Source: Chitinophagaceae bacterium | GTDB taxonomy: Bacteria > Bacteroidota > Bacteroidia > Chitinophagales > Chitinophagaceae | DNA: 33,531 bases | Reading direction: 5' to 3' | NCBI GenBank assembly: GCA_027486835.1 | Contig: JAIXOJ010000214.1 | Coordinates: 1-33,531 of the forward strand | Shown: piece after piece, positions 181-28,211 of the stretch | How the letters are laid out: every line of letters starts with the position of its first letter | Numbering within the stretch: position 1 is the first letter of the stretch | The notes under the pieces: model-generated | The model's input: only the letters and a program-made list of their open reading frames with translations | Database searches by the model: none | Told to the model about the DNA's origin: nothing | Translations under genes and position numbers: made by a program

Positions 181-231
181 GTGACCATTGTACCATTACA
201 ATATGTGGTGGCGTTAGATACCCAATTGTAG
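181..231 (+). pseudogene. Duplicated 5' fragment of oxyR (16 codons)
   Basis: Reading from GTG at 181, this stretch encodes VTIVPLQYVVALDTQL and then TAG. The intact OxyR at 27264 begins MTIVQLQYVVALDTYRHF. At DNA level, 184-222 matches 27267-27305 at 37 of 39 positions, and 195-222 is identical, including all wobble positions. After the GAT-ACC codons the sequences diverge abruptly. Such identity at silent positions points to a recent duplication or a recombination junction, not to conservation of two genes. I see no clear similarity upstream beyond a CTTATT. See the matching entry at 27267-27305. Confidence 0.85.
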
Positions 232-252
232 GCATCTATCAATAATTACCAA

Positions 253-260
253 TAAGTTTG
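253..260 (+). promoter_or_regulatory. Candidate Bacteroidota -7 promoter element
   Basis: TAAGTTTG fits the Bacteroidota -7 consensus TAnnTTTG. A TTG at 226-228, inside the oxyR fragment, could be the -33 element, but the 24-bp gap is a little long. Transcription would begin only about a dozen bases before the ATG at 279, so the leader would be very short. This favours ATG 279 over the in-frame TTG at 258 as the translation start of the next gene. Confidence 0.3.
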
Positions 261-278
261 TGTTTTAAAAATCATTTT

Positions 279-932
279 ATGAAAAGAAACAGGACTTTAG
301 GAATTGCTATGGTAATTTTATTAGGAACCACCATTTCTGTAAGTGCATTAGCTCAAAAAATACAACTGTCAAAAATTGAAGTAAGTGCAGCAATTGGAAG
401 TTTAGTACCCGAAAGCATTATATTAAATGGTGGTCTAGACCTTTATGAAGTTAATAACTGGGCTATTGGTGGTAATGTTTTAATGTATAATTATCCTTCC
501 ACAAACCACCCGTCTGACTATGTACTTTCCAACCATTTATTTTCCAGTAATAAATATTCTTACAGTGACGAAATTTTTACATTCTCTTTAAACGTTACCA
601 AAAAAATACCCGTTTGTAAATACTTCCAAGTTGGGCTTAGCTTGGGAATTGCTGAAAATCAATTCACCAATCATATTTTTAGTTCTGATACAGATTCACA
701 AGAAGGTATTTACGTATATCCGAACAAAAGGTATCTAGGTAGTAATAGAACCTATTTCCTTGGTTTTTTGGCACAAACCAAATTCATGGTACCGCTGAAC
801 AGCCATAGTTCGTTAGGTATCGCCATCATAAGCAACCAAAATCCCAAAAACAGTTACAATGCTTTCACTTTTAGTTTCAATAAATCCTTTAACATCAAAA
901 GCATTTTTTCAAAGAAAAGAATTAAGGCATAA
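279..932 (+). CDS. Secreted protein of unknown function, possibly a small outer-membrane barrel
   Basis: The product has 217 residues. It opens with a basic N-terminus, a hydrophobic stretch (about residues 7-20) and a predicted signal peptidase I site ending SALA before Gln. The mature part is rich in Ser, Asn, Tyr and alternating hydrophobic residues, with strand-like segments such as NWAIGGNVLMYNY and a C-terminus AFTFSFNKSFNIKSIFSKK, as in small beta-barrels or adhesin-like proteins. No catalytic motif is visible. I chose ATG 279 because the signal peptide starts there. The frame extends to TTG 258, but those codons overlap a promoter-like motif. It stands alone between the oxyR fragment and a non-coding stretch. 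Confidence 0.65.
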   Translation: MKRNRTLGIAMVILLGTTISVSALAQKIQLSKIEVSAAIGSLVPESIILNGGLDLYEVNNWAIGGNVLMYNYPSTNHPSDYVLSNHLFSSNKYSYSDEIFTFSLNVTKKIPVCKYFQVGLSLGIAENQFTNHIFSSDTDSQEGIYVYPNKRYLGSNRTYFLGFLAQTKFMVPLNSHSSLGIAIISNQNPKNSYNAFTFSFNKSFNIKSIFSKKRIKA

Positions 933-1186
933 TGATTTTTGAGTTTTTCGATAATACTGAAGGAAAAAAGTTTTGTGCTTAACAAGAAAAATCTAGCCAC
1001 TTTGCTTAATCTAAATATTGAATCAATTTTTGCGAAAGCAAATAGTTGAACAATTTCCCTTTTGCTCGTCCAAATTAACGGTTAGTGATGCTATAAGTGC
1101 CTTTACGGAAATAGAAATAGAAAATAGTCGAAATGTTTAGCCAAAAGCGGTTGAACTAAAGCTGGTAGAAAGTAATTGCCAAGTTC

Positions 1187-1234
1187 TGCCAAAATGACAC
1201 ATTTGGCATCATTTTCACTATAAAATGGCCAAAT
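1187..1234 (+). other. Two mutually exclusive hairpins sharing one arm
   Basis: Hairpin 1 pairs TGCCAAA (1187-1193) with TTTGGCA (1202-1208). Hairpin 2 pairs ATTTGGC (1201-1207) with GCCAAAT (1228-1234) and CATTTT (1210-1215) with AAAATG (1222-1227). It has 13 pairs, a two-base bulge at 1208-1209 and a 6-nt loop. The arm around 1201-1208 cannot be in both at once. The layout resembles a transcriptional switch, but no T-run follows hairpin 2 and the next gene starts 420 bp away, so function is open. Confidence 0.4.
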
Positions 1235-1297
1235 AGCATGTCAAAGTCTTTCTAAATAGGCAAATTTTAAAAATAAATTGTCCTGTTTTTTCATTTT

Positions 1298-1402
1298 ATT
1301 GACCAGTATATTGAAAATATTGCCCGATTTATAGAAGAAATTGACCAATTTATTGAAGATACTGACCAATTTATTGAAGAAATTGAGCAGTTTATTTGGA
1401 AG
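1298..1402. repeat. Tandem array of five 21-bp units
   Basis: Units begin at 1298, 1319, 1340, 1361 and 1382. The two central units (1340-1381) differ at only three positions, and the outer ones are more diverged. On the plus strand the units read as heptads such as IDQFIEE and TDQFIEE, but there is no ATG and an in-frame TAA lies at 1274-1276. On the minus strand they read LVNFFNK-like heptads inside a 59-codon ORF that begins with ATG at 1420. The period is a multiple of three and the outer units are degraded, as in an old coding-phase minisatellite. A second 21-bp array lies at the other end of the window. Confidence 0.85.
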
Positions 1403-1654
1403 GAGGACCAGCCCTAGCATTTTAAGCAATATTTAAAAAAGATAACACACAACAAAAGCAGCCTAAAAATATTTACGCCAATAAAACAAAGGAATCTATC
1501 AGACAATATAAAGCTAAACTATGCCTCACCTTCAAACGCACCTAACACTGCTAAGTCTATTCTTGCCACCGTATCTATTTTTGGTTTTGAAATCGAAATA
1601 TCTACCATTTATGGTTTATTTTGCCATCTTATAACTTCACTTCTATATTTTGGA

Positions 1655-2629
1655 ATGAAAAAACGACTCTACAAAGTTGCCCTGCTCACTTCGCCCATTT
1701 TGGGATTGTATGGCGGTGCACCAGCCTATTTTTTAAATAAAGTTGCATTGACTTATTTCCTTGGATTAACAGGAATTATTACAGTGGTGATTTTTATTGT
1801 TTGGAATTTAAACATACTAATTGTTACCAAAGTAAAGAACAGCAGCAGTTGGCAACGATATGTGTTGAGTTATTTATCCGTAATTACATTTCAATTTTCC
1901 CTCATTAAAATTGGAACTATCTTTCAACTTCGCCCCGATAATATCAATGAAGTGTATCCATTTATTGCGATGCTTTCTATTAATTCAATCATCTTGTTTA
2001 TTGCTAATTTCATTTTGCTTCAAACACAAAAAGCGACTGCTGACCAAGAGATAGAGCTTTTGAAAGTGAGCAACCTAGAAGCCCAAAAACAAGTGCTGAT
2101 GCAACAATTACAACCCCATTTTCTCTTCAATGCGCTCAGCACGCTTAAATCGCTCATAAGCGAGAATTCAAGCGTTGCAGAAGATTATACCCTTCAACTT
2201 TCTGATTTTCTGCGCTATTCTGTTCAGGCCAAAAATCAAGACACGATTGAACTTGCCGATGAGGTAGAATTTACCCAAAACTATATAAACCTTCAAAAGG
2301 TTCGTTTTGGTGATTCCTTGCTTTTTTCCGTAAACATTCCAGACAATTTCCTTTCGAAAAAAGTGCCCGTTTATGGCTTACAAACCTTGGTGGAAAATGC
2401 CATCAAGCACAATGCTTTTAGCGACAAAAAAATCCTTACCATCAATATATCCGTAGAAAACAATCGAATTCGGGTACATAACAACCGCCAACCAAAAAGA
2501 TTGCTAATACCCTCTGGCACCGGGTTGCAAAACTTGAACAAACGCTATCAAATATTGGCCAACAAAGAAATTGAAATAATTGCCGACGAAAACAACTTTA
2601 TTGTATATCTCCACATACTTGAATCATGA
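1655..2629 (+). CDS. LytS-type sensor histidine kinase
   Basis: This 324-residue inner-membrane kinase belongs to the His_kinase family (LytS/YehU type), which autophosphorylates a His and passes the phosphate to a LytTR regulator. Hydrophobic segments near residues 8-25, 33-57, 70-92 and 101-123 form a membrane sensor with no evident extracytoplasmic domain. A helical linker (125-150) leads to the phospho-acceptor motif LQPHFLFNAL with His155. The ATPase domain shows the N-box VENAIKHNAF and G-box GTGLQNLNKRYQ. ATG 1655 gives the usual length and start (MKKRLYK). The stop overlaps the start of the response regulator gene, so the two are translationally coupled. The signal is unknown. Its position just before the peptidase and export genes makes it a candidate controller of them, which is inference. 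Confidence 0.93.
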   Translation: MKKRLYKVALLTSPILGLYGGAPAYFLNKVALTYFLGLTGIITVVIFIVWNLNILIVTKVKNSSSWQRYVLSYLSVITFQFSLIKIGTIFQLRPDNINEVYPFIAMLSINSIILFIANFILLQTQKATADQEIELLKVSNLEAQKQVLMQQLQPHFLFNALSTLKSLISENSSVAEDYTLQLSDFLRYSVQAKNQDTIELADEVEFTQNYINLQKVRFGDSLLFSVNIPDNFLSKKVPVYGLQTLVENAIKHNAFSDKKILTINISVENNRIRVHNNRQPKRLLIPSGTGLQNLNKRYQILANKEIEIIADENNFIVYLHILES

Positions 2630-3390
2630 ACATCATCATTATTGAAGACGAAAAACTAACCGCTAAAGATTTGGTAAAAACGCTGATTGCCCTTGAGCCT
2701 GATATTGTTATCATAGCTATGCTGCATTCGGTGGAAGAAGCGATTGAATTTATAAAAACCAAACCCCAGGTTGACCTCATTTTTTCTGACATTGAATTGG
2801 GCGATGGGCTAAGCTTTGAAGTGTACGAAAAATTACAAATTACCACTCCTGTCATTTTTTGTACTGCCTACAACCATTACGCAATAGATGCCTTTGCCAC
2901 AGTGGGTATAGACTATATTTTAAAGCCATTTAGCAAAGAACGCATTGAGAAAACACTGTTGAAATACCAATCTCTGAAAGAAAAGTTTGCCACACCCAAA
3001 CAAGATTTTTCTGACTTATTTCTTCTGCTTAAACAAAAAGTGCCCACACAAGAAAAATCAGTGATTATTCACCAAGGGGATAAAATCATCCCTCTCAGCG
3101 AAAAAGAAATTGCCCTTTTCTTTATTGATAAAGAATATACGTTTGCCTACACTTTTGGAGGCAAAAAGCATATCCTTTCGCAGAACATGGATCATCTTGA
3201 AAAAACATATGCCCCCGATTTCTTTCGAGCCAACCGTCAGTTTTTGGTAAACAGAAAAGCAGTGAAAGACGCTTCTCAACACTTCAATAGAAAGCTACAG
3301 ATCAACCTCACAATTCCTTTTGAAGAAGCGATATTGGTGGGAAAATTAAAAACAACTGCCTTCACATGTTGGCTTTCAGGGGATTTTTAG
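2626..3390 (+). CDS. LytTR-family response regulator
   Basis: The protein has 254 residues. The N-terminal receiver domain (about 1-120) has the acidic pair E7-D8, phospho-acceptor Asp55 in LIFSDIELGDG, Thr80 in FCTAY and Lys100 in YILKPF, so it is complete. Residues about 145-250 form a LytTR DNA-binding domain, with the typical FFRANRQFLVN signature and a preceding IIHQGDKIIPL strand pair. The start ATG overlaps the kinase stop as ATGA, and the kinase is its obvious partner. LytTR regulators often control exported or envelope functions through imperfect direct repeats upstream of targets. I could not identify such sites with confidence here. Confidence 0.93.
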   Translation: MNIIIIEDEKLTAKDLVKTLIALEPDIVIIAMLHSVEEAIEFIKTKPQVDLIFSDIELGDGLSFEVYEKLQITTPVIFCTAYNHYAIDAFATVGIDYILKPFSKERIEKTLLKYQSLKEKFATPKQDFSDLFLLLKQKVPTQEKSVIIHQGDKIIPLSEKEIALFFIDKEYTFAYTFGGKKHILSQNMDHLEKTYAPDFFRANRQFLVNRKAVKDASQHFNRKLQINLTIPFEEAILVGKLKTTAFTCWLSGDF

Positions 3391-3739
3391 CGAAGTTTAT
3401 CGATTTTTGTTTAAGATTTTCGACTTTTATGTAGTAATATTGCCACAAATAGGAGTAGTTTAATGAAATCCAATTCTTTTTTTATGCGGAGGTTGAAAAG
3501 GTGCGAAAGCAATACTTTGTATCTTATAGTAAATAAGCATTTATTGAGTAATTCCCAACACAAGACCAATCTCTTGATTGTTTAAACCTAATTTACAATG
3601 ATTAGCCTCTTTATCATGAAAAACCTCAATATCCTAAACAGATCACACTCTTTTCTTCAGCTTTTGCCATTTAGCTTGCAAATACACTAAATTACTTACG
3701 TAAAATAACAATTTGGATAAACAATAAATTAAAGTAATA
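3391..3739. other. Intergenic stretch after the two-component pair
   Basis: No conserved gene is visible. It holds two short plus-strand ORFs: 3463-3585 (40 codons, listed separately) and 3598-3690 (30 codons, beginning MISLFIMKNL). I see no hairpin terminator after the regulator gene and no clear TAnnTTTG promoter. A TACTTTG at 3514-3520 is one base short of the consensus spacing. The next gene starts at 3740 after a very AT-rich run, as expected for a promoter or leader. Confidence 0.4.
3463..3585 (+). CDS. Possible small basic peptide (40 aa)
   Basis: A 40-codon ORF starts MKSNSFFMRRLKRCESN and ends in TAA. It is preceded by AGGAG at 3451-3455, 7 nt before the ATG. That is a good Shine-Dalgarno match, which is unusual for the genes of this window. 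The peptide is Lys/Arg-rich with one Cys, has no signal peptide, and matches nothing I know. Its place just after a LytTR regulator is where small signalling or bacteriocin peptides can lie, but chance is a real alternative. Confidence 0.2.
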   Translation: MKSNSFFMRRLKRCESNTLYLIVNKHLLSNSQHKTNLLIV

Positions 3740-4465
3740 ATGGCAGATCAAGAAGTAATCAAGCACACCAAGAAAATCTATAAGATTTGGAATAGTAAAG
3801 ACAATACTATATGGCATAAGCTCAAAGAATTTCTAGTAGAAATTTTCATTATCGTTTTTGCGGTTAGCATTTCTATTTGGTTGCACAACTGGAGCGAGCA
3901 TAAGCACGAACAAGAGTTGGTAAAAACTTTTTTAATTGGGCTTAAAAAAGATCTACAGTCCGATATAAATGGGGTGAAAGAAGCTCAAATTTTTTATAAG
4001 AATGCAAATACTAATTACACATTTCTTTCAAAACTGGACAAAGAGCAAGAGCCAAATTCTGATTCATTAAAAGAAGCAAGTCTTTTTATAGGAAATAGTT
4101 CTTTTTTAAGACCACATAAATCAAGATTTACTGGTTTTTCGTCGGCAGGTAAAATAATGACAATTGAAAAGGATGAATTGGTACAAGCTATTTTGGAATA
4201 CTATCAAGGGACACTAGCAGCTTTGAGTACTTCTGAGGAAGCATGGCTAAATATTCACAAGGGACTATATCAGTTTTTAATCAGTCAAGGAATAGATAGT
4301 AAACAACCTAAAGAAGTATATCAAGTTCTTTCAAATATTCAGGGAAAAGCCTACACCAAGCGTTTAATTCCTTGGCCTCAATTACTAGAAAGATATCAAA
4401 ACGCGATTAATGATGCCAATTCAATAATCGCAATGATCAATAAATTGTATCCTGAAGAAAAATAG
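3740..4465 (+). CDS. DUF6090-like single-pass membrane protein
   Basis: This 241-residue protein has a short cytoplasmic N-terminus, one strong membrane helix (about 30-50) with the sequence EIFIIVFAVSISIWLHNWSE, and a long helical domain outside the membrane. The pattern of a Glu-initiated helix followed by a LHNWSE-like turn, then charged helix and KTFLIGLKKDLQSDI, is that of the DUF6090-type proteins of Bacteroidota (usual form GILIALQINNWNE). Their function is unknown. The gene is followed after 27 bp by the M1-like peptidase gene and probably shares its transcript. No catalytic residues are visible. Confidence 0.6.
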   Translation: MADQEVIKHTKKIYKIWNSKDNTIWHKLKEFLVEIFIIVFAVSISIWLHNWSEHKHEQELVKTFLIGLKKDLQSDINGVKEAQIFYKNANTNYTFLSKLDKEQEPNSDSLKEASLFIGNSSFLRPHKSRFTGFSSAGKIMTIEKDELVQAILEYYQGTLAALSTSEEAWLNIHKGLYQFLISQGIDSKQPKEVYQVLSNIQGKAYTKRLIPWPQLLERYQNAINDANSIIAMINKLYPEEK

Positions 4466-4492
4466 AAATCTATCGTTTGAAAAACATTAGCA

Positions 4493-5881
4493 ATGAAAAT
4501 AATAAAGTTGTTGTTATCGTTAATTATTTTTATTTCCCAAGCCCCTTTCGCCCAAGTTCCTCACCTGACAGGAGAGATTAAAATTTCAGTACTAAACGGC
4601 ACTATTGTGGGTGATTTGGAATATTCAAATTTACCAACTCTAAAAAATTATAGCATTTGGTTAAATACTGGATTGAATGTTAGATACTTTAGAGATGAAG
4701 CGGATACGTTTAATTATACGCCTGAAAAATATTATGAAAGCGAAAAATCCGATGAAGCATTTCAGTATTATTTTCCGGATAAGGATAAAAAAGGTAAATT
4801 CTTGCCATCAAAATTTAAAATAAATTATGTAGGTAAATTTCCAGTAATTAATGATACTCTCAGGGCTAGTAATAGGAACGATTGGAAAGGAAATATTGCA
4901 TTTAACGGCAAAACAATAAGAGCCTCAGAACAAACCTGCTGGTACCCTATTCTATATGATGTTGACAATGATGTAGAGATTAATAAGGTTACCTACGACT
5001 TAAAAATAGATTGTATCGATTGTGAAAGTATTTATGTAAATGGTTCAGCCCCCCAAAAAGGAAAATCAGTTAGTGCTACATCAAATAATCCCACTGCGTT
5101 ATTGATGTATGCAGGTATCTTCGATTTTACAAAAAATAAGGAAACCTATTTTATAGATGCTAAACTAAATCCTGAACAAGAAAAAGTACTGAATAACTGG
5201 ACTGAAAAGATTAAAGGTTTTTATGAGGGAAAATTAAAGATTCCCTATCAGAATTACGTTGCCTATTTATCTACTACACCCATTTCAAAGAAAAATGCTT
5301 GGCTGTTTGTAACTTATCCAACAATTGCAATTATTGGCCATAAATACAACTTAAATTATTACTTTAATCCAAATGAAAATGTTTTAAAAGATAGTTCTAT
5401 CATCGAATTGCTTTCTCATGAACTTGGTCATTACTATTTTGGAACGATGTTCGTTCCAAATGCTGAATTAAGATGGTTTTTTCTTGAAGGAATTACAGAG
5501 TATTTGGCACTGCAAACAATAAAAGAAATTTTAGGTGAAAACTACTACAAGCTTCAAATGTCAGCACATATAAAAAGAGTGAAAGATTTCAATCCCAAAT
5601 CACTACCAACTGTAAAAAGCAATGAAATAAACGAAACGTATAGATATAAATACATTCCACTTCTTATTACAGCATTAGAAAAAGAAATAGGAAAAGAAAA
5701 GGTTTGGAATTGGTTGGCGACAATTTTAAAATCTGATAAATCAACTAAAACAGATTACGATTTCCTCAAAACTTCATTATTAAAAAGTGGAATTAGTGAT
5801 ACAACAGTTAAAAATTTTGAGGAAAAATATATTCTGTCTGACAAAGCGAAAGAGAATGTGCTCAGAATATTGAATAATTAA
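4493..5881 (+). CDS. Secreted M1-like zinc metallopeptidase
   Basis: A signal peptide with predicted cleavage at PFA before Gln21 starts this 462-residue protein. The N-terminal half is beta-rich, as in the N-terminal domain of M1 aminopeptidases. The zinc site is HELGH (309-313), followed after exactly 18 residues by Glu332 in FLEGITEYLAL, the gluzincin spacing of family M1. I cannot find a GAMEN exopeptidase motif, so it may not be a typical aminopeptidase. A Tyr-rich stretch and helical C-terminal part follow. The family acts on peptides; here the location would be periplasmic or outer-surface. It is the first of a run of predicted envelope peptidases and is 36 bp from the next gene. Confidence 0.8.
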   Translation: MKIIKLLLSLIIFISQAPFAQVPHLTGEIKISVLNGTIVGDLEYSNLPTLKNYSIWLNTGLNVRYFRDEADTFNYTPEKYYESEKSDEAFQYYFPDKDKKGKFLPSKFKINYVGKFPVINDTLRASNRNDWKGNIAFNGKTIRASEQTCWYPILYDVDNDVEINKVTYDLKIDCIDCESIYVNGSAPQKGKSVSATSNNPTALLMYAGIFDFTKNKETYFIDAKLNPEQEKVLNNWTEKIKGFYEGKLKIPYQNYVAYLSTTPISKKNAWLFVTYPTIAIIGHKYNLNYYFNPNENVLKDSSIIELLSHELGHYYFGTMFVPNAELRWFFLEGITEYLALQTIKEILGENYYKLQMSAHIKRVKDFNPKSLPTVKSNEINETYRYKYIPLLITALEKEIGKEKVWNWLATILKSDKSTKTDYDFLKTSLLKSGISDTTVKNFEEKYILSDKAKENVLRILNN

Positions 5882-5917
5882 AGCTCCTTCATATTGTCAA
5901 ATTAAATTCAACATTTT

Positions 5918-7348
5918 ATGGTAATTAAGATGTCTACAACATTTTTGTTTACTTTAATTTTATTTTCGGTTTCATCAGCTATTGGCCAAGCCAAAACCTT
6001 TCAGTTCGATTGGGAAAAAATAAAAGCAAACCCGAAACTGCCGCAACGAGAAGCGCAATGGCTCAACGACAGCATTTCTGTGGAGGAAAGAAATAAAGCC
6101 ATTGAATTGGTAGCAGCATTATCCCAACCCGCTTCTACGCAACTTATGGTTGGATATGCACATTTAGATGGCAGTTATACCAACTTTAAAAAGTATTTGG
6201 ATAGTTTGTCCATCCGTCCGCCCGACGGCGATGCAGGTATCATTAGGGTGGCTTATTTGGTGGCAAAGCTTCGAACTAGGTTATTAGCAAAGAAAAACAA
6301 GAACACCATGTTCCGTGCAGCTTTCAAAGGCGAAACTTTAACGGTACCCAATTTCAATAGAAATGATATAAATCCGAACATCCAACTCAGTTTTGATTTT
6401 CAACCTGCACGAGTGTTGTTAGATATCATAGGTTCGGAAAAAAGCAGTTATAAAGAAATAGCAAAAAAAATAAGCCTACACCAATTCGACATGCTCATTA
6501 GGCATCATAATCAAAGTTTTTATGAAACGCCACTTACCAAAGAGCGATTAATCACTTGTTTACAGATTGCCAACAGCAAAAAACCATTAGATGTATTGTA
6601 TCGTTACATGAACCCAAGTGGTTTACTCGATTTTGCAGATGTGAAAGATAATCTTGCCAATTACAAAAAGCAGTTAACAGATTTAAAACACAATGAGCAA
6701 GAAATTACCAACTATATAAACGCTCGCATATCCCCCCTCCTACCCACCAACACAGCCTTCAAGAGAAAGATATCGTTCTTTTATGTAAATGATGCAGACG
6801 GTTGGCAGGCAGAAGATGTGGCAGCTATTGATTTGAATTATTATAAAGATGATTATGCAACCATATTACCAACCATGGTTCATGAAACTTATCATACAGG
6901 TCAATCGGCAGTAGAGATAAAAGATACCATTAAAAGAAAAGAAAATGAACAATCTTTGGTAGATGCCATGAATTACTTGTTTTTAGAAGGAACAGCAAGC
7001 TATGTGTACCCACCTGCCAAGAAAACCCAAACAGAATATGAAATAGCAATAGCAAAAGCTGGAAAATTGTTAGATAGCTTATACCAATACACAATTGTGA
7101 AGTACAACGAAGAAAAAGCCCAAACAATTGCTGATGATGGCATACAAGGGGGTGGACCATTCTATTATTTCGGTGCAGAAATGACAAAGACTATCGTTAC
7201 AAATTTAGGCAAAGAAAAACTCGCCTCCATCATCCCTCATGGGGGCATCACCTTTTTTAAAACCTATTTAGAAGCAGTGGAAAAATCAGGTAGTACAAAG
7301 AATTTGTTGAGTGGTGAGGTAACGAAATTTATAAACAGTCTTAAATAA
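5918..7348 (+). CDS. DUF5700-type putative zinc-dependent peptidase
   Basis: The protein is 476 residues with a signal peptide cleaved after SSAIG, before Gln24. ATG 5930 is an alternative start four codons in. The active-site motif is HETYH (322-326) with a likely third ligand Glu357 in LFLEGTASYV, 30 residues later. The downstream segment GGGPFYYFGAEMTK is typical of DUF5700 proteins, which are predicted zinc peptidases of Bacteroidota with no established substrate. The spacing between HExxH and Glu is longer than in M1, so it is a different fold variant from its upstream neighbour. It is part of the same-strand peptidase run. Confidence 0.75.
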   Translation: MVIKMSTTFLFTLILFSVSSAIGQAKTFQFDWEKIKANPKLPQREAQWLNDSISVEERNKAIELVAALSQPASTQLMVGYAHLDGSYTNFKKYLDSLSIRPPDGDAGIIRVAYLVAKLRTRLLAKKNKNTMFRAAFKGETLTVPNFNRNDINPNIQLSFDFQPARVLLDIIGSEKSSYKEIAKKISLHQFDMLIRHHNQSFYETPLTKERLITCLQIANSKKPLDVLYRYMNPSGLLDFADVKDNLANYKKQLTDLKHNEQEITNYINARISPLLPTNTAFKRKISFFYVNDADGWQAEDVAAIDLNYYKDDYATILPTMVHETYHTGQSAVEIKDTIKRKENEQSLVDAMNYLFLEGTASYVYPPAKKTQTEYEIAIAKAGKLLDSLYQYTIVKYNEEKAQTIADDGIQGGGPFYYFGAEMTKTIVTNLGKEKLASIIPHGGITFFKTYLEAVEKSGSTKNLLSGEVTKFINSLK

Positions 7349-7390
7349 CCAGTTTTATCTAACTAAATATTATTGAACAATTAGAAAATT

Positions 7391-7576
7391 ATGCAAAACA
7401 TTATAAAAATAAAACTCATACTACCATTATTGTTAGTAGCATTAACAAGATTTAGCCAAATGCGCAATATGCTAACCCCAGTCTACAATGTTAACAACCT
7501 GCCAAAACCTTGGCAGGGAAGTATAATTTTTTATTTACCACTAGCTAAAAATAATATTTATTTATGTCAACAATAA
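7391..7576 (+). CDS. Short secreted peptide ORF (61 aa), unknown
   Basis: The ORF starts with a clear signal peptide: MQNIIKIK, a hydrophobic core, then RFS before Gln23. This is the same cleavage pattern as in the other secreted proteins here. The remaining 39 residues (starting QMRNMLTPVYNV, with one Cys near the end) match nothing I recognise. It overlaps the start of the RDD gene by 13 bp. It could be a genuine small secreted peptide or the leader-bearing front of a gene lost by deletion. Decayed genes nearby (8986-9234 and the broken gene at 9268) make the second option serious. Confidence 0.35.
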   Translation: MQNIIKIKLILPLLLVALTRFSQMRNMLTPVYNVNNLPKPWQGSIIFYLPLAKNNIYLCQQ

Positions 7577-8127
7577 AAAATCAATTAAAGCTCCAATTAT
7601 TTGTTAATAGAAGCTATGTCTTGGAAGCAGATAAAAGGTATATATTGGCTTCTTATCACAAGAGGGTATTTGCATTTCTGATAGACATTTCATTTCTGTG
7701 CTTAATTGTTTTTGTCCTATATCATATACTTAGAATTAATGGCAAAACGATTAAGTCAATAAATTATGAGGGATTATCACATGTTAGTGTAAAAGGTGAT
7801 AATTTATCATTAGAAAGTTTGAAATACATAAAAATTGGGTTTGCACTTTTACCCACTTTTTATTTTTCTGCAATAACCTTTTTTACAAATGGCTATACTT
7901 TAGGTAAGTGGCTATGTAGTATTCGTATTCACTCACTATATCATCATCGTATTTCTTTATGGCATTGTATTGAAAGAAGTCTCGGCTACATAGCCTCCTC
8001 ACTTGAATTTGGTTTGGGCTTTTTGCAGATTATTTGGAATCCTAACAGAATGACTTTACATGATAGAATTGCAGAAACAGTTGTTGTAAACACACAGAGA
8101 AATAATAAAAGTAGTAATAGTAAGTAA
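7564..8127 (+). CDS. RDD family membrane protein
   Basis: This 187-residue integral membrane protein has the hallmarks of the RDD family: an Arg in YHKRVFAFLIDISFL near residues 35-50, a Gly-Lys segment LGKWLCSIRIHS after the second hydrophobic region, and the closing NPNRMTLHDRIAETVVV. Membrane segments lie near residues 37-58, 80-105 and 130-155. RDD proteins are proposed to help transport, but their role is mostly unknown. ATG 7564 overlaps the preceding short ORF. The CPBP protease gene follows after 7 bp, and the two membrane genes look co-translated. Confidence 0.8.
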   Translation: MSTIKNQLKLQLFVNRSYVLEADKRYILASYHKRVFAFLIDISFLCLIVFVLYHILRINGKTIKSINYEGLSHVSVKGDNLSLESLKYIKIGFALLPTFYFSAITFFTNGYTLGKWLCSIRIHSLYHHRISLWHCIERSLGYIASSLEFGLGFLQIIWNPNRMTLHDRIAETVVVNTQRNNKSSNSK

Positions 8128-8134
8128 TAATAAA

Positions 8135-8953: not shown

Positions 8954-8985
8954 ATGAATAACATATATTATATGAAAATAGGTAA

Positions 8986-9234
8986 TTAGATTGTTATGCA
9001 AAAAAGGTCAAACTTTTTGGCGTTACCACATCGGGGGTTTTAGATATATCCAATATGTATTTTGTAAAATCGCCTTGCAAAGAATTTGAGTTAGGATATT
9101 CTCTCTCAAAAAGCTATAGGATTCCTGATATGGCTATTGACAGCAAGGGTATAATGCCTGATTACTATATTGATAAAGAAATTAAGGATTATGATTGGAT
9201 TGACTATGTGGCTGGAATTTTAAATAGCAAGTGA
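8986..9234 (+). pseudogene. C-terminal remnant of an S41 protease gene
   Basis: An open frame from 8986 to the TGA at 9232-9234 has no start codon of its own. From AKKVKLFGVTTSG (about 8998) it aligns with the C-terminal part of the S41 protease encoded at 11442-12926 (SKKVKLMGVTTGG there). Both continue to a SKSYRI motif, then a final P-D and a trailing W-I segment. The catalytic Ser region and everything upstream are missing, so this is a leftover tail. The space where the missing body would lie is now occupied by the RDD and CPBP genes. Confidence 0.8.
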
Positions 9235-9267
9235 TGAATTAGAATAATTAATTGAACTAACTAGATA

Positions 9268-10374: not shown

Positions 10375-10401
10375 TTGTAGCCTCAATAAAAATTTAGAAA
10401 A

Positions 10402-19549: not shown

Positions 19550-19562
19550 AAATAATCGACAC

Positions 19563-20354: not shown

Positions 20355-20456
20355 TAAGGTTCTTGTTTCGGATAACCCATTTCTTAATCTTGGTTGTGAG
20401 TGGATTTGGATTTTCAAATCACTGCAATTATTTACTCATAGGCCTTGTTTAGCACC

Positions 20457-20498
20457 CTTTGTTTCAATTAAAAAACAAAGCTATCTCCCCTTTTTTTT
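20457..20498 (+). terminator. Weak terminator candidate after the DUF4249 gene
   Basis: CTTTGTTT (20457-20464) pairs with AAACAAAG (20473-20480) around an 8-nt loop, and a run of eight T begins at 20491. The stem is AT-rich and the T-run is 10 nt beyond it, so it is not a classic intrinsic terminator. It does sit at the natural boundary between the TonB receptor pair and the export operon. Confidence 0.25.
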
Positions 20499-20522
20499 AG
20501 TTATTTAAAGTAAATATGCATA

Positions 20523-20909
20523 TTGTTAGTCCCTATTGTAAAGCGTTTTAGCTTATTGCCATTATTTGCCTTCACATTGCTTCTATTAGTAGCAAATAAT
20601 GCTTCATCACAAAGTGCAAAAGATATTCTCGGCCATTGGAAATCAGTGGAACATCCCGACAAACTAGTGGAAATTTATGTAGGCAAAGATGCCTTATGCT
20701 ATGGAAGAGAAGTTTCCACGCCTAATAAAAACATGCTGAAACAGCTCCAATACAATGAAGCCACCAAGACTTTTAGTGGCACGATGTCGCCGCCAGACAA
20801 AGACATAACCTTATCTGTAAACATCAGCGTTTTAAACCATGATACTTTAAAGCTGGTAGCTAAAAAATTCTTTGTCACGAAGACAATGCTTTTTGTAAGA
20901 AAAAAATAA
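20523..20909 (+). CDS. Small secreted DUF2147-like protein
   Basis: The ORF gives 128 residues with a signal peptide cleaved at ASS before Gln30. The mature part (DILGHWKSVEHPDKLVEIYVGKD, then TKTFSGTMSPPDKD and a closing beta strand) resembles a DUF2147-type beta-barrel of lipocalin size, as found in many Bacteroidota. There is no ATG in frame near the signal peptide; the likely start is TTG at 20523. An ATG at 20516 is out of frame and stops after 11 codons. The TolC gene starts 3 bp after the stop, so this small protein is probably the first product of the export operon. Confidence 0.6.
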   Translation: MLVPIVKRFSLLPLFAFTLLLLVANNASSQSAKDILGHWKSVEHPDKLVEIYVGKDALCYGREVSTPNKNMLKQLQYNEATKTFSGTMSPPDKDITLSVNISVLNHDTLKLVAKKFFVTKTMLFVRKK

Positions 20910-20912
20910 AAA

Positions 20913-22223
20913 ATGATGCTTAAAAAAATGACCCATACCGTTTGTTTGATAGCATCTTGTATTTGCATATCATCTCTAACTGCCCAAAAAGTTTTTACCA
21001 GCTTAGATAGTTTACTATCCTATGCCACACAAAAAAGCATTACGGTACAGTCAAACGATATTAAAATCCGGCAAGCCAAACAAGCCAAGGTAGCGGCTCT
21101 GTTGAGTATTCCGGATCCTACAGGAAATTCGGGTTTGAATTATACCGACAATACCACATTGCCCGTTAGTTTGTTCCCAGATGCCAGCAATCCAGGTAAG
21201 TATTCGGAAATAAGGGTAGGCCAAAAATATTCTACGCAGTTTAGCCAAAATACGGATATTAAAATCGTAAACCTAGCTGGTTGGGAAAATTGGAAACTTG
21301 CTAAAATAAATATCGACTTAGCCAATTCCAATCGACTCTTGGGAGTTAAGTCGCTCGAAGAAAATATAGCATCCAATTATTACAACATACTCAATCTGCA
21401 AGCACAAATCGTAAACAGTGAAAGAAACTTAGCCATTTCAGATACATTGTTTCAGATTGTGCAAGCCAAGCAAGAAAAAGGTTTGGTGAAACCACAGGAT
21501 GTAAACGACAGTAAGGTGGCGGTTTTAAACAACCAAGAGCAAATTAAGCAGCTTGAATTTTTATTGAAACAGTACTATTTAAGCTTAAAAACCCTCTGCG
21601 ATATTCCAGAGCAAGAACAGATAGTTATTGCCCAAAAGTTACCGCAAAACCCGGAGAGCGAAGCTAGCACCGTGGTTCTAAATGCCTTGGCTATCAGTAA
21701 TAGTTTGCTTAAAGAAAAATATGCTTGGAGCAATTATAGACAATCGGTCAAGTCTAACCTGCCAACACTATCCTTTACCCAAAGCAATAGCTACACCTTG
21801 TACAATCAGGACTTTAAACTCTTTGATGGCAAATGGTATAAAGGTGCTTCAATAGGGTTTAAAATATCTATACCCATGCCCAATGCCAACAGCATAGGAA
21901 ATCGGACTAAGGCTAAATATGATTACGAATTAGCTAGAAAAATTACCGAACAAGAAACTATCAAGGCCAATTTGGTGCAAACGCAATTGCAGGTGGATTA
22001 CGATAAAGCCTTGTCTCAAGCTCGCAGCAACAAAGAGATTTTTGAACTAAGAAAGGATAGCTATCAAAAAAACAAATTTCTCTATGAACAGGGTTTGCTG
22101 GGGTTAGACCAAACGTTGAACAGTTTCACCGCAATGGTAAATGCGGGCTATAACCTCACCACATCTATCATCAATGTACAGTTGGCACAAGCCAAAATAA
22201 ACATCAACAATAAATTAAAGTAG
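20913..22223 (+). CDS. TolC-family outer-membrane efflux protein
   Basis: The protein is 436 residues with a signal peptide cleaved at LTA before Gln25. ATG 20913 is followed at once by a second ATG, and a third possible start is ATG 20928. Long helical stretches show TolC-type periodicity: LDSLLSYATQKSITVQSNDIKIRQAKQAKV (split here by its own turn), ENIASNYYNILNLQAQIVNS, and a C-terminal repeat with LYEQGLLGLDQTLNSFTAMVN. It would form the outer-membrane duct of a tripartite exporter with the adaptor encoded 7 bp downstream and the ABC proteins beyond. Confidence 0.9.
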   Translation: MMLKKMTHTVCLIASCICISSLTAQKVFTSLDSLLSYATQKSITVQSNDIKIRQAKQAKVAALLSIPDPTGNSGLNYTDNTTLPVSLFPDASNPGKYSEIRVGQKYSTQFSQNTDIKIVNLAGWENWKLAKINIDLANSNRLLGVKSLEENIASNYYNILNLQAQIVNSERNLAISDTLFQIVQAKQEKGLVKPQDVNDSKVAVLNNQEQIKQLEFLLKQYYLSLKTLCDIPEQEQIVIAQKLPQNPESEASTVVLNALAISNSLLKEKYAWSNYRQSVKSNLPTLSFTQSNSYTLYNQDFKLFDGKWYKGASIGFKISIPMPNANSIGNRTKAKYDYELARKITEQETIKANLVQTQLQVDYDKALSQARSNKEIFELRKDSYQKNKFLYEQGLLGLDQTLNSFTAMVNAGYNLTTSIINVQLAQAKININNKLK

Positions 22224-22230
22224 TGTAAAT

Positions 22231-23373
22231 ATGAAAAAGAAATGGATTGCTGTATGCACCTTGGTTTTGCTAGCTTCGGCTTGTGGAAAGAAAACACAGG
22301 AAACCAAACCCGTTAGAAAAGACATCACCGAAACAGTGTATGCTTCTGGCATTTTAGAGGCTAGGAATACCTATAGTCTTACTGCCCAAGCAGATGGGTA
22401 TTTGGTGGCGGTGAATTTTAATGAAGGAGATATTGTTGCCCCTGGAAAAGTATTGGCAGTGGTGGATAACAAAGAAAGTGGGTTCAACCGCGAAAGTGCA
22501 AACGACCTGTTTGTAATTGCCGAAAAAAACACCCAGAACGATGCACCTTCTTTGGTGCAAGCAAAGAACAATATGGCCACTGCCCAACAAAAAAAGGAAC
22601 AAGATTTAAAGCAGTTCAAAAGATACCAAGAACTATTGGCAGCCAAAGCCATAGCTACTGTAGATTATGAAAATGTGGCATTGCAATACCAAAACTCGGC
22701 TAGAAACTATGATGATGCAGTGGAAAATTATCGTTTACTGAAAACACAGGCCGAGCAACAGCTCATTTCTACCAAAGCGGCTAAAAAAGTAAATGAAACC
22801 ATTCTAACCAAAAACGAAATCATTGCTATTGTAAGAGGCAGGGTGTATAAGAAATACAAACAAGTGGGCGACTACGTAAAGCGTGGGGAAGCAATTGCCC
22901 TTATTGGCGATGCCGACGATATTTATGCCAAAATAAATGTTGACGAAAGCAATATTGCCAAAATAAAAATAGGTCAAGAGGCATTGGTACAATTAAACAC
23001 CCAACTAGGCAACAATTACAAAGGCATAGTAAGTGAAATCTACCCAATGTTTGACGATGCTTCCCAATCTTTTTTCTGCAAAATAAAATTTATGGACACC
23101 CTTGGTTTTAGCATTGTAAATACTCAGCTTCAAAGCAATATCATAACGGGTGTTCGAAAAAATGCGCTATTGATTCCGAAGAACTATATCGATGCAGGCG
23201 GATTTGTCCAGATAAAAGGGATGAAAGAAAAAACAAAAATTAACACGGCTTTTGCCAGCAGCGATTGGGTGCTTGTATTAGGCGGCATTGATGAAAACAC
23301 TGTTTTAGAAACAGATGATATAGCAGAAAATAAGGTAAAAACTTCTGAGGCGGGCGCATCTATGGCCAAATAG
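22231..23373 (+). CDS. HlyD/MacA-type periplasmic adaptor lipoprotein
   Basis: This 380-residue membrane-fusion protein has a lipobox LASAC with Cys18. It shows a biotinyl-lipoyl-like half motif (YSLTAQADGYLVAVNFNEGDIV, about 50-71), a coiled-coil hairpin (about 95-190, rich in Gln, Lys and Ala), the second half motif (AIVRGRVYKKYKQVGDYVKRG, about 198-218), and then the beta-barrel and membrane-proximal domains. It should link the TolC duct to the permease encoded downstream. The 124-bp gap to the permease gene is the only sizeable gap in this operon and holds no ORF. Confidence 0.9.
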   Translation: MKKKWIAVCTLVLLASACGKKTQETKPVRKDITETVYASGILEARNTYSLTAQADGYLVAVNFNEGDIVAPGKVLAVVDNKESGFNRESANDLFVIAEKNTQNDAPSLVQAKNNMATAQQKKEQDLKQFKRYQELLAAKAIATVDYENVALQYQNSARNYDDAVENYRLLKTQAEQQLISTKAAKKVNETILTKNEIIAIVRGRVYKKYKQVGDYVKRGEAIALIGDADDIYAKINVDESNIAKIKIGQEALVQLNTQLGNNYKGIVSEIYPMFDDASQSFFCKIKFMDTLGFSIVNTQLQSNIITGVRKNALLIPKNYIDAGGFVQIKGMKEKTKINTAFASSDWVLVLGGIDENTVLETDDIAENKVKTSEAGASMAK

Positions 23374-23497
23374 ATTTACTAGACAGTATTAAATGGGTAA
23401 CAGGTTTTGCAACATTTTGTATGCATCTGCAAACGAATACCCCCTTTATCGTAATGCCCACTACCTGCCTTTTCGCTAACATTAAAATGATGAAAAA

Positions 23498-24727
23498 ATG
23501 AAACTACCTGTCAATTTAGACATTGCTTTTACCCATATTTCCAAAGGACTGCGCCAAACCTTGGTAGCTGCCTTGGGCGTTACCATTGGGGTGGCTGTTT
23601 ACTTGTTTATGAATTCGTTGAGTGCGGGGTTTAGCAAGTTTTCAAGAGATAATATTTTCCAATCCAATGCTCATATCAAAATCTACAAAAGCGATGAGAT
23701 GAGCCAAGCATTGGATAAAAAGGCTTTGGCCATGCACCTTATTACCAATCCACAAATAACTACGCTGTCTAAAAAAATAATCAACCCTGCCAACTTATTG
23801 GAGCAGGTGAAGCAGCAACCTTATATCACGCATGCCATTGCACAAATTGAATTAAGCACATTTTACAACCGAGGTAAAACACAAATAAAAGGTACCGCAC
23901 TTGGCGTAAACATGATTGAATACAGCGGCATGTTTAATACGGAAAAATACATGGTGGCAGGCAGTGTAAAAGATTTGCAGGGCAATCTTAATGGAGTGAT
24001 TATTGGGTGCGGCATTGCAGAAAAATTGAGTTTAGGCATTGGAGACAACATTACCATGTCTTCCTCTTATGGGGTAAGCAAAGTATTGCGCATTGTGGGC
24101 ATTTTCAAATTGGGGAATAGCATGAGCGACGATTCAAAATCGTATGTCAACATCAGCACTGCCCAACAGTTTTTAAAAGAAGGCCCTTCTTATGTTACCA
24201 CTCTTTACGCCAATACACAGAACCCCGATGAAACCGAGGGTTTTGTAACAAAATTGCAAGCCATTACTCCATACACCGTAGAAGATTGGAAAACCACCAA
24301 TGCCGATGTAATCAGTGGCGACAAAACCAGAAGTACCATGATGAATTCTATTTCTATGTCTATTTTACTGCTAGCGGGGTTTATCATCTACAACATATTG
24401 AGTTCTACCATTTCCCAAAAAATAAACGACATCGCCATACTCAAAGCCACAGGATTTGCCAGCAAGGATGTGATAAAAATTTTCTTGTTAGAAGCCTTAA
24501 TTATGGGTTTGATAGGCACGCTCATCGGCTTGGGACTTGGTTCTGTATTGATATTTATTTTATCGAAAGTTTACATGGGAGGGCCTGTTGGTTATTTCCC
24601 CATCCATTTTGAATGGAAATTATACCTGCAAAGTTTTGTACTTGGATTATTAATGACTGTTTTGGCTGGTTATTTCCCTGCTAGAAGGGCAGCCAATGTA
24701 GATCCGATTGACATTTTTAGAAAATAA
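23498..24727 (+). CDS. ABC transporter permease, FtsX/MacB type
   Basis: The protein is 409 residues. One membrane helix lies near the N-terminus (LVAALGVTIGVAVYLFMNSL, about 22-41), followed by a periplasmic MacB-type domain (about 45-280). Three C-terminal helices (about 288-308, 333-358, 380-400) carry the FtsX domain and the closing PARRAANVDPIDIFRK, typical of the family. FtsX/MacB permeases do not take up solutes; they drive export or extraction of lipoproteins, peptides or antibiotics through a MacA-like adaptor and TolC. In MacB the ATPase is fused, whereas here it is a separate gene 12 bp downstream, as in LolCD-like systems. Confidence 0.92.
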   Translation: MKLPVNLDIAFTHISKGLRQTLVAALGVTIGVAVYLFMNSLSAGFSKFSRDNIFQSNAHIKIYKSDEMSQALDKKALAMHLITNPQITTLSKKIINPANLLEQVKQQPYITHAIAQIELSTFYNRGKTQIKGTALGVNMIEYSGMFNTEKYMVAGSVKDLQGNLNGVIIGCGIAEKLSLGIGDNITMSSSYGVSKVLRIVGIFKLGNSMSDDSKSYVNISTAQQFLKEGPSYVTTLYANTQNPDETEGFVTKLQAITPYTVEDWKTTNADVISGDKTRSTMMNSISMSILLLAGFIIYNILSSTISQKINDIAILKATGFASKDVIKIFLLEALIMGLIGTLIGLGLGSVLIFILSKVYMGGPVGYFPIHFEWKLYLQSFVLGLLMTVLAGYFPARRAANVDPIDIFRK

Positions 24728-24739
24728 ACATTAGGCTTT

Positions 24740-25438
24740 ATGACAACTAACAAAGTAGTGCTGCATACACAAGGCATTGGCAAATATTTTTACGACCCAG
24801 TAAAGTTTAAGGCTTTAGACAATATCAGTTTTGAGGCTTATGAGGGGGAATTTTTAACCCTTGTGGGTAAAAGTGGCTCGGGTAAATCCACGCTTTTGTA
24901 TTGCCTCAGCACAATGGATACCTCCTATGATGGCAACTTGTTTATCAAAGGAGAAAAGGTAACGGGTAAAAAGACCGATGAATTGGCCGCCATTAGAAAT
25001 CGGCACATTGGCTTTGTTTTTCAGTTTCACTACCTTTTACCTGAATTTTCTTGCCTTAAAAATGTGATGATACCAGCATTAAAACTGGGTCAGTATTCGG
25101 CAGATGAGATAGAGGAACGGGCTTACGAAAAATTAAAAATGCTCGACTTGGCATCGCAAGCCTTGAAGCCTGCCTCAAAACTGAGTGGTGGACAGCAACA
25201 ACGGGTGGCCATTGCGCGTGCTTTAATAAACGACCCCGCCATCATTATGGGCGACGAACCTACTGGCAATCTAGACAGTAAAAACACAGAAATTGTGTTT
25301 GATATTTTCAAAGAAATAGCCCATGATTTTGGCAAAACCATTATTGCCGTAACCCACGACAACGACTTTGCCAAAGCCAGCGACCGCACAATAGAACTAG
25401 CCGATGGTAAAATTCTGACATTGAACAAGCAGTTTTAG
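24740..25438 (+). CDS. ABC transporter ATPase, LolD/MacB type
   Basis: This 232-residue ATPase has Walker A GKSGSGKST (43-51), a Q-loop in FVFQFHYLLPE, the signature LSGGQQQR (148-155), Walker B IIMGDEPTGNLDS (168-180) and the switch His206 in VTHDND. The sequence VFQFHYLLPEFSCLKNVMIP is characteristic of the LolD/MacB/FtsE branch. It powers the permease encoded just upstream. The next gene follows after 3 bp, so the barrel protein belongs to the same transcript. Confidence 0.95.
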   Translation: MTTNKVVLHTQGIGKYFYDPVKFKALDNISFEAYEGEFLTLVGKSGSGKSTLLYCLSTMDTSYDGNLFIKGEKVTGKKTDELAAIRNRHIGFVFQFHYLLPEFSCLKNVMIPALKLGQYSADEIEERAYEKLKMLDLASQALKPASKLSGGQQQRVAIARALINDPAIIMGDEPTGNLDSKNTEIVFDIFKEIAHDFGKTIIAVTHDNDFAKASDRTIELADGKILTLNKQF

Positions 25439-25441
25439 GAA

Positions 25442-26614
25442 ATGAAAAGATGGATGACAGGTATGCTACTAATGGGTTTCATTTTGACACATAAAGCAAT
25501 GAGTCAAAAAAACAATTACGTAAAAGCAGGGGATGAATTTCTGCCTTTGATCATTGTTTATGCCCCTGTACTTTGGCAGGACAGCCTTACTAAACAGTTA
25601 AAAGAAGAAATGCTGCAGGAAAAAGTACGCTATCACTATGTGGTGTTTGGCTACACTTCTTGCGCATCTGATTCATTGGCAAAAGAAGTAAATCAGCTTT
25701 TAAATACTGTGCATTGGATTGACAAGCAAAAAATATATCTGCTGGTTTATGGTGAATCAAGCTGCCATCAAGTACTTGATAAAATTGATAAATCAATTTT
25801 TGCGGACACTTATTTTGAACCAATTCATCCAACAACACCGCCAACCAATTGGTATGCACTGTTTAGGCAGTTTGACAAAAAATATGTTTGGGGTAAAGAT
25901 ATTTTTGACATTGAGGAAAAAAGAAAAACAGCCGTCTTTCAGAAAAAAGATTGGAATGGGCTGCTGTACCTTGGGTTTCACCACCAAAACGATTTTAACA
26001 AAGACAGTAGTTATCTCCCCTCCTTTTACACTACTTACGGCATAGGTATAGATTATAGGCTTACAAGTCACCTGCATCTGCAAGGCAGAATGGGCATCAG
26101 CGTAAAAATACCCAACAAAAAAAAGATGCAAAGCCAGCTACAAAGCCAAATGAACCCATCTGCATCTGGCGGCAATCAATCAATAACCATTGAAATAGCT
26201 ACGCACTTCATTTTGGAACAATCGTTACAGGCTAATTATTTGTTCAGGCTCCAAAAAAAATGGCAGCCTTATGTGGGGGCGGGTTTGATGGCGGTTAATT
26301 TCACGGCAAGTCATAAAAAAGAAACCAAATCAATAAATATTGCCTCCGCAAGTAGCCTAGAAAGTTCCTTTGGGGGCAATGCGAATATGCCCATTTTTTC
26401 AGGCGTATTTGTAAATCCGTTCATCAGTTTTGGCACAAACGCATCAGTTTCTGAAAACTCAGCCTTCGTATTCAATGGAAATGTAACCCTGCCCAATGGC
26501 AAAACTTATCAAGGCGTGAAACCGGGTTTTGGGCTTCAAAACTTATCGATACAATGTGGACTATCGTTCCGTTTGGGAAAAAAAGCAAAATATTATTATA
26601 AGTATGTACAATAA
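25442..26614 (+). CDS. Secreted protein with N-terminal alpha/beta-like domain and predicted outer-membrane barrel
   Basis: The product has 390 residues, with a signal peptide cleaved at AMS before Gln22. Residues about 30-140 look alpha/beta (FLPLIIVYAPVLWQD; VRYHYVVFGYTSC; IYLLVYGESSCHQVLDK), somewhat like a hydrolase or receptor-bound peptide domain, though I cannot find a full catalytic triad. Residues about 170-390 have alternating aromatic strands and a C-terminal LSIQCGLSFRLGKK, as in outer-membrane beta-barrels of Bacteroidota. It sits within the export operon, 3 bp after the ATPase gene, and may be a dedicated outer-membrane component. The next gene overlaps its end by 11 bp. Confidence 0.6.
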   Translation: MKRWMTGMLLMGFILTHKAMSQKNNYVKAGDEFLPLIIVYAPVLWQDSLTKQLKEEMLQEKVRYHYVVFGYTSCASDSLAKEVNQLLNTVHWIDKQKIYLLVYGESSCHQVLDKIDKSIFADTYFEPIHPTTPPTNWYALFRQFDKKYVWGKDIFDIEEKRKTAVFQKKDWNGLLYLGFHHQNDFNKDSSYLPSFYTTYGIGIDYRLTSHLHLQGRMGISVKIPNKKKMQSQLQSQMNPSASGGNQSITIEIATHFILEQSLQANYLFRLQKKWQPYVGAGLMAVNFTASHKKETKSINIASASSLESSFGGNANMPIFSGVFVNPFISFGTNASVSENSAFVFNGNVTLPNGKTYQGVKPGFGLQNLSIQCGLSFRLGKKAKYYYKYVQ

Positions 26615-27077
26615 TCCCGTTTACCAAAAACAACATTTTATGATGCAACAATCATACGAAATGGGCGCAGAATGGATTGTAGTGGATAGTGACCCTATCA
26701 GCAATATGGTGATGCAATATGCCATTGATTTGGCCAATGTTCCCTACCATAAAATTTTGTTTTTTGAAGAAGCTACCGCTGCCCTTGACTATTTAAAAAG
26801 CGCGAAATCTTCGGCACCAAAAATTATTTTGCTAGAAATCTTAGACAAAAACAAGCATCTTGATTTTAATTTTTTGGATCATTATCCGCTATTAAACAGA
26901 ACGGATTTGATTTATGTGGTGAGTATTTCCTGCTTTCAATTCTGCATGGATCAATGCCTTGCCTACGATTTTATTCGTAAATATTTACTTAAACCGATTG
27001 ACGGGAATTTATTTGCAACTATTCATCAGGATTATACTGCTTGGTTATTGAAATACAAGCAAAGGTTAGCTGTTTAG
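26604..27077 (+). CDS. Receiver-like protein with Glu in place of the phospho-acceptor Asp
   Basis: From ATG 26604 the protein has 157 residues; ATG 26640 is an alternative start that would avoid the overlap with the upstream gene. The fold pattern is that of a stand-alone CheY-like receiver: an acidic pair in VVDSDP (Asp28, Asp30), the beta-3 strand PKIILLEIL with Glu78 where Asp is expected, Ser107 in YVVSIS at the Thr/Ser switch site, and Lys130 in YLLKPID. The Asp to Glu change often mimics or replaces phosphorylation. It has no output domain. As last gene of the export operon, it may bind a partner without kinase control. The assignment rests on motif order. Confidence 0.6.
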   Translation: MYNNPVYQKQHFMMQQSYEMGAEWIVVDSDPISNMVMQYAIDLANVPYHKILFFEEATAALDYLKSAKSSAPKIILLEILDKNKHLDFNFLDHYPLLNRTDLIYVVSISCFQFCMDQCLAYDFIRKYLLKPIDGNLFATIHQDYTAWLLKYKQRLAV

Positions 27078-27263
27078 CGGAAAGAAGAAATTTGTACTTT
27101 TATGGGGGAATTGTGCAATATTCCTTATCCCAATAATGATTGCTAAAAACAAGTTTCAAAAAAAATTACAACTTGCCGACTATTGTAAAAAGTCTGGTGT
27201 CCACAACCGTTGCGCATATAGAACCTCAAAGGGCATACATACATCTTGCTTATTTTGCGCAAC

Positions 27264-28211
27264 ATGACCATCGTACAATTACAATATGTGGTGGCGTTAG
27301 ATACCTATCGTCATTTTGGAAAAGCAGCAGAGCATTGTTTTGTAGCACAGCCATCTTTGAGTGCACAAATACAAAAATTAGAAGAAGAAATTGGTGTACT
27401 TATTTTCGACAGAAGTAAACTTCCCATTATCCCCACCGAACAGGGGGAAGCGCTGATTGCTCAGGCACGCACTATTCTTCACAATTGCAATGAATTCACT
27501 GAACTGGTAGAAGCTAAAAAGAACATTCTTACTGGTGAATTGAAAATAGGCATCATTCCCACTTTAGCCCCTTACCTCCTACCCCTGTTTATACATGCTT
27601 TTGCAGAAAAATTCCCATTAATTAGGCTGGTGGTAAACGAACTAACCACACAAGTTTTGATGGAAAGGCTTAAAGATGGGCGTGTGGATGTTGGGCTTTT
27701 GGTTACTCCACTCAATGACAAAAGCTTAAAGGAAGATGTATTGTTTTACGAAGAAATGTTGGCCTACATAAGCCCTAAAAACACGATTTATCAGAAAAAC
27801 CACGTGCTAGCCTCTGACATAGACCCTAACAAACTATGGCTGCTAGAGGAAGGGCATTGCTTTAGAAACCAAATTATGAACCTATGCGAATGGCGGAAAA
27901 CGAGCAAAGAAGCCTCCCATTTCGATTATGAAGCGGGCAGCTTGGAAACGCTTCGCCGCATGGTTGAAATTAATGATGGTATGACCATTTTGCCCGAACT
28001 AGCCACCCTCACCCTCACCGAAGACCAAAAAAAATGTATCCGCCATTTTATAGAACCGCGACCAACTAGGGAGGTAAGCCTTATTACCCATCGGGATTTT
28101 GTAAAAAGAAGATTGGTTAAGGCTCTTAAAACTGCCATTCTGGACACTATTCCTGCTAAAGTGATGGCGAATACTAAGGAACTGGTCATTCCTATACAAC
28201 CGGTGGGTTAA
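27264..28211 (+). CDS. oxyR: OxyR, LysR-type peroxide-sensing transcription regulator
   Basis: From ATG 27264 the protein is 315 residues. An upstream in-frame TTG at 27246 is less likely, since family members begin MTIVQLQY-like. The N-terminal winged helix-turn-helix (1-60) has HFGKAAEHCFVAQPSLSAQIQKLE. The effector domain carries GHCFRNQIMNLC, with Cys199 and Cys208 at exactly the positions of the redox pair in E. coli OxyR, so disulfide-based peroxide sensing should be intact. OxyR activates catalase, peroxidase and Dps genes. The first codons contain one copy of the 39-bp direct repeat whose other copy is at 184-222. Its present upstream region would be that of the block between the repeats. 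Confidence 0.93.
   Translation: MTIVQLQYVVALDTYRHFGKAAEHCFVAQPSLSAQIQKLEEEIGVLIFDRSKLPIIPTEQGEALIAQARTILHNCNEFTELVEAKKNILTGELKIGIIPTLAPYLLPLFIHAFAEKFPLIRLVVNELTTQVLMERLKDGRVDVGLLVTPLNDKSLKEDVLFYEEMLAYISPKNTIYQKNHVLASDIDPNKLWLLEEGHCFRNQIMNLCEWRKTSKEASHFDYEAGSLETLRRMVEINDGMTILPELATLTLTEDQKKCIRHFIEPRPTREVSLITHRDFVKRRLVKALKTAILDTIPAKVMANTKELVIPIQPVG
27267..27305 (+). repeat. Right copy of the 39-bp direct repeat, within oxyR codons 2-14
   Basis: This segment matches 184-222 at 37 of 39 positions in the same orientation. The last 28 bp (27278-27305 and 195-222) are identical. The two differences are at 27272 (C, against T) and 27277 (A, against C). It forms the inner edge of oxyR and lies 27,083 bp from the left copy. 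Excision between the copies would rebuild an oxyR reading frame starting GTG at 181. No integrase, tRNA or transposase gene is seen in the window to explain it as a standard att site. Confidence 0.85.

Follow-up and report, generated by a model that had tools for sequence, protein, structure and literature searches.

A displaced copy of the oxyR start, probably a rearrangement scar, 27 kb upstream of intact oxyR in a Chitinophagaceae genome

The oxyR start and its orphan copy

The window, i.e. the whole stretch of 33,531 nucleotides analysed here, is an entire contig (C47). It begins with the end of an insertion sequence, which is followed by a short orphan copy of the start of oxyR, a block of 27 kb with genes on the plus strand, intact oxyR, and a group of genes on the minus strand. 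The intact gene (27264–28211, plus strand) encodes a protein of the LysR family with LysR domains according to Pfam; its top NCBIfam match is an OxyR model, with a score below the cut-off of this model. Bases 2–42 of this gene (27265–27305) are repeated in the same orientation at 182–222, with 39 of 41 bases identical. The inner part of this repeat (184–222 versus 27267–27305, 37 of 39 bases, the final 28 without mismatch) had been reported in the first-pass annotation, and is thus confirmed and slightly extended. The two mismatches are at positions 189 and 194, and base 181, just outside the 41-base pair, is G instead of the A found in oxyR.

As previously described, the left copy (181–222, plus strand) reads GTG followed by OxyR codons 2–14, and the right copy lies within the intact gene. 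We can add that codon 5 of the left copy encodes P instead of Q, that 12 of its 14 residues are identical to OxyR (tblastn), and that the 14 codons are followed by two unrelated codons and TAG. It is therefore a partial copy of an intact gene and not an intact gene itself, and it has drifted from oxyR by the changed start codon, Q5P and one silent change. Both edges of the fragment are sharp.

Elsewhere in the window, the 41 bases align at best with 22 matches (same strand) or 24 (opposite strand), and in a sample of 1.80 Mb of the same genome with 25 or 26, so that the repeat is far beyond chance. A blastn comparison of the fragment with bases 1–27000 gave an E value of 4e-13, and no further convincing piece of oxyR or of its flanks was found in this region. 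According to the first-pass annotation, a widespread occurrence of the 39-bp segment would have spoken against its reading. The 25-base core has two copies in the 6.40-Mb genome, with up to three mismatches allowed, and the left fragment fits no repeat family. When window positions 120–16800 were searched against the genome, oxyR was the sole partner of the fragment among the matches listed. Of the earlier proposal of an insertion or a duplication junction, which rightly did not commit to a mechanism, the duplication of the oxyR start is certain, while an inserted block of 27 kb is unsupported by the data presented below.

The left contig end and the 27-kb block

A Transposase_29 insertion sequence contributes its 3' end to positions 1–119 (plus strand): its reading frame stops at base 95 and the element terminates near 118/119, and the contig breaks within it. 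The first 118–119 bases or so recur at six other places in the genome, five of which are contig ends. These copies are 94–100% identical across the aligned part, and their flanks diverge directly past the common GAGTTCTGA. The longer copy on C26 contains an 85-aa frame that matches PF21804 at 1.1e-14, and the last 30 residues of this frame match the window frame at 3–92. The gene ending at base 95, which had been proposed as an anchor to search relatives for an empty site, is thus the tail of a transposase that recurs six times elsewhere in the genome and cannot serve this purpose. The multicopy nature of the element probably explains the contig break, and a larger structure could be hidden to the left of it. 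A candidate of 86 bases at a contig end for the left end of the insertion sequence led to a different repeat. The spacer between the element and the oxyR fragment (120–180) matches the 1.80-Mb sample at chance level only and, among the matches listed for the genome, has none elsewhere past base 136, up to which the insertion-sequence copies reach. The element ends about 62 bases to the left of the fragment. Since its copies are still 94–100% identical, whereas in the fragment the ATG and one codon are no longer preserved, the insertion sequence is probably the later arrival.

Between the two copies of the repeat, 24 ORFs were taken as genes, all on the plus strand; smaller and overlapping ORFs were outside the Pfam scan. 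At an E value of 0.001, 19 of the 24 have a Pfam match and five have none. Gene A (279–932, plus strand) has no match in Pfam or NCBIfam and has a paralogue (55%) on contig C122. According to Pfam, it is followed by a LytS/LytTR pair and a peptidase-rich gene run (1655–16609, plus strand), and then by genes for a TonB receptor/DUF4249 and for an exporter (OEP, HlyD, MacB and ABC) at 17210–27077 (plus strand). The latter region also encodes an outer-membrane-barrel-like protein and contains an ORF without Pfam match that appears receiver-like by eye. The earlier remark that no integrase is visible holds for these genes: among the 19 ORFs with a Pfam match there is no integrase, relaxase, transposase or other recombinase, and NCBIfam, applied to five of the block ORFs, added no recombinase or transposase. 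Two side observations concern similarities of this region elsewhere in the genome. Several partial copies of the intergenic stretch between gene A and LytS (1184–1402) are present on C169 and C79, and the TonB receptor gene (17657–19351) has two stretches with 67–68% identical DNA on C27.

The G+C content is 34.8% over 1655–16609 versus 38.8–40.5% over 17210–27077. This modest shift, at about 16–17 kb, is inside the block. For reference, the G+C content of the genome sample is 38.5%, with 33.1 to 43.9% (5th to 95th percentile) for 2-kb pieces. There is no G+C step at the right repeat, and at the left repeat just 180 bases lie outside the block.

The neighbourhood of oxyR here and in relatives

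The closest relative OxyR that was found is 72% identical over its full length, in a search that may omit the nearest records to this genome. Several loci of the wider family share the order LD-carboxypeptidase – oxyR – ... – KUP – X – Y – purQ, and X is directly 3' of oxyR in 8 of 12 genus mates. Here, at least 5 kb of other genes, i.e. RhuM, an unknown gene, YbjQ, a Mrr-type gene and another unknown gene (28364–33181, minus strand), are located 3' of oxyR, a position that X-Y-purQ occupies in most genus mates. In this genome KUP-X-Y-purQ is present on C33 and the LD-carboxypeptidase gene on C192. The latter has other genes on both sides, which indicates that the upstream side of oxyR is rearranged or broken. 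As about 160 bases of C33 remain past KUP, this contig may be the chromosomal neighbour of C47, and the RhuM-Mrr genes would then lie in between. The downstream side of oxyR may thus be interrupted instead of broken.

Among the 12 genus mates, the nearest gene 5' of oxyR is different in each of the eight loci that are readable (judged by eye with simple ORF calls), and L050 and L052 have one gene in common slightly further 5'. An attempt to recognise the native upstream side at the left copy led to neither side being callable as native, as no stretch common to the relatives' oxyR upstream sequences was seen by eye. In 28 of 94 relative loci (L047–L140) the gene divergent from oxyR belongs to one peroxidase family (Pfam on the L063 member), presumably katG.

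Gene A is absent in all 12 genus mates, and the comparison of the block proteins with the 94 relative oxyR loci (a few of which are duplicates) at an E value of 1e-8 gave few matches near oxyR. Those of LytS, LytTR, HlyD and MacB are at 24–34% identity; the ABC protein has matches in eight loci, with 60% identity in two of these. Over all comparisons of block genes with the relatives' oxyR surroundings, the weak matches span 23–34% identity. The absence of gene A and the few block matches would agree as well with a block that arrived later. An exporter with the same orientation as oxyR is located about 3 kb 5' of it in Hydrotalea sandarakina (HlyD/MacB/ABC; L070, 2666–5726) and in a metagenome-assembled genome (ABC/MacB; L079, 2–1358). 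A linkage between exporter and oxyR was considered from these loci and not retained: the ABC proteins are 60% identical to that of the block in both, but MacB is at 29% and 34% and HlyD at 27% (L070), which is no more than suggestive.

Origin of the left copy, and another repeat family

A background sample of 1.80 of the 6.40 Mb (28%) of the same genome holds 42 short two-copy pairs, nine of which have sharp borders away from piece ends. When rows with both copies on one contig and at least 1.5 kb apart are considered, 26 are found, the window's pair included; several of these are overlapping matches of one pair. An ORF of at least 80 aa is touched by neither copy in 18 of the 26 rows and by one copy but not the other in seven. 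Judged by eye, C39 carries the only clean comparator besides the window's pair. There, a 53-bp segment at the 3' end (8596–8648) of a GH88-family gene of 498 aa recurs as an orphan at 26710–26762 (pieces L191, 8596–8648, and L243, 6710–6762). Like the oxyR pair, this pair consists of an intact gene and an orphan fragment on the same strand and with sharp edges; the distance on C39 is 18.1 kb. It differs in that the fragment is a gene 3' end and that all five mismatches fall on third codon positions. The latter indicates that the C39 orphan derives from a gene copy that once worked, and since no element is visible there, such scars can arise in this genome without one. This calls for some caution in general: a direct repeat over a gene start that brackets a block resembles an island border, and C39 presents the same anatomy without sign of an element.

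We consider it likely, with a probability of roughly 70%, that the left copy is an orphan oxyR fragment left as a scar of a rearrangement, and that the 27 kb between the copies are ordinary chromosome and not a mobile unit. A second oxyR stretch, which was either duplicated locally or acquired as homologous DNA from a relative, would once have been present at, or been copied to, 181–222. Everything past its first 42 bases would then have been lost or never copied. The fragment would have drifted afterwards, with ATG becoming GTG and Q5 becoming P, and the Transposase_29 element would have inserted upstream of it, probably later. The position of related sequence at both ends of these 27 kb would then be coincidental. 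We infer the order of these events and the copying route from what is directly seen, i.e. the repeat with its two copies and sharp edges, the insertion-sequence end, the block without recognised recombinase gene, the altered neighbourhood of oxyR and the analogue on C39. Several points speak against a scar. As the copy starts inside the start codon, the precise beginning of the gene is included, and a random piece would seldom have this property. The copies share one contig and one orientation, as is expected of a border pair. The single comparator comes from a sample of 28% of the genome and is a gene 3' end, a larger structure may be hidden beyond the insertion sequence, and if C47 and C33 adjoin, the neighbourhood on the downstream side may be less altered than it appears. 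Bacterial gene fragments and pseudogene remnants as a general class (e.g. Pseudofinder, PMC9336565) are likewise short, truncated and drifting copies of an intact gene located outside genes, whereas the oxyR piece is very short, is a gene start and ends sharply after codon 14.

Alternatively, a broken end near 181–222 may have been repaired in a single template-switching event that copied 42 bases of oxyR, and a full second oxyR would never have been present at the left site. The sharp edges on both sides and the lack of any other oxyR remnant in bases 1–27000 agree with such templated copying; the third-position differences on C39, although from a different locus, point to a once-coding copy, and we consider this route rather unlikely. 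Site-specific integration, with the 41 bp at the oxyR 5' end as attachment core and a 27-kb element that supplies a new oxyR start, appears quite improbable. Integrative elements can insert at a gene end with a duplicated attachment core, and the direct repeat at both ends of the block, with one copy truncated and the other within an intact gene, has this appearance. The core has no copies elsewhere in the genome, gene A is missing from all genus mates, and an integrase could have been lost or be encoded by an unrecognised gene, such as one of the five ORFs without Pfam match. Against these points, no integrase or other mobility gene is recognised in the block and the G+C change is misplaced inside it. 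The attachment core of a young integrated element is expected to be exact, while the supposed core has two mismatches and an altered start codon. No empty site was found among the 12 genus mates, but with OxyR identities of 72–73% at most, none of these is near enough for a fair comparison. For the earlier proposal of an inserted block bracketed by the repeat, the missing G+C step at the right repeat, the insertion-sequence end left of the left copy and the comparable stray fragment on C39 are also unfavourable. A search at record level found no literature that joins oxyR, an integration site, a genomic island and attL. If the block were truly mobile, it would be an element that targets a core stress regulator.

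As each end of the contig lies in a repeat, the left copy could also be a piece of oxyR misplaced during assembly. This is very improbable, because the copy differs from oxyR at two of 41 bases and in the start codon, lies within unique sequence, and is shorter than the overlaps of 118–119 bases common to several contig ends. Least probable to us, with hardly any chance, is the insertion of a reverse-transcribed mRNA 5' end. As the copy starts within the start codon, it would equal the mRNA 5' end if the oxyR transcript were leaderless, and a TATTTTG that we take to resemble a promoter is found about 10 bases before the oxyR ATG. The sole comparator, being a gene 3' end, speaks against it.

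Another repeat family is represented in the window at 31306–31526, with 46 further matches in the genome, often several per contig and 0.7–2 kb apart. Its copies are on a single strand on C49, C125 and C137, lie between short ORFs on C49, and by eye have the conserved end ...CCTTTTTCGTTG. From its sequence arrangement, this family looks like a gene-cassette array. An integron-integrase profile matched C141, C105 and C165, and not C47, which is a further point against integration of the block; these matches are below the cut-off and without profile positions 182–245, and all 14 control genomes match too, none over the cut-off. At its right end the contig finishes in a 21-bp tandem repeat (33290–33531), and some other contig ends likewise lie in tandem repeats.
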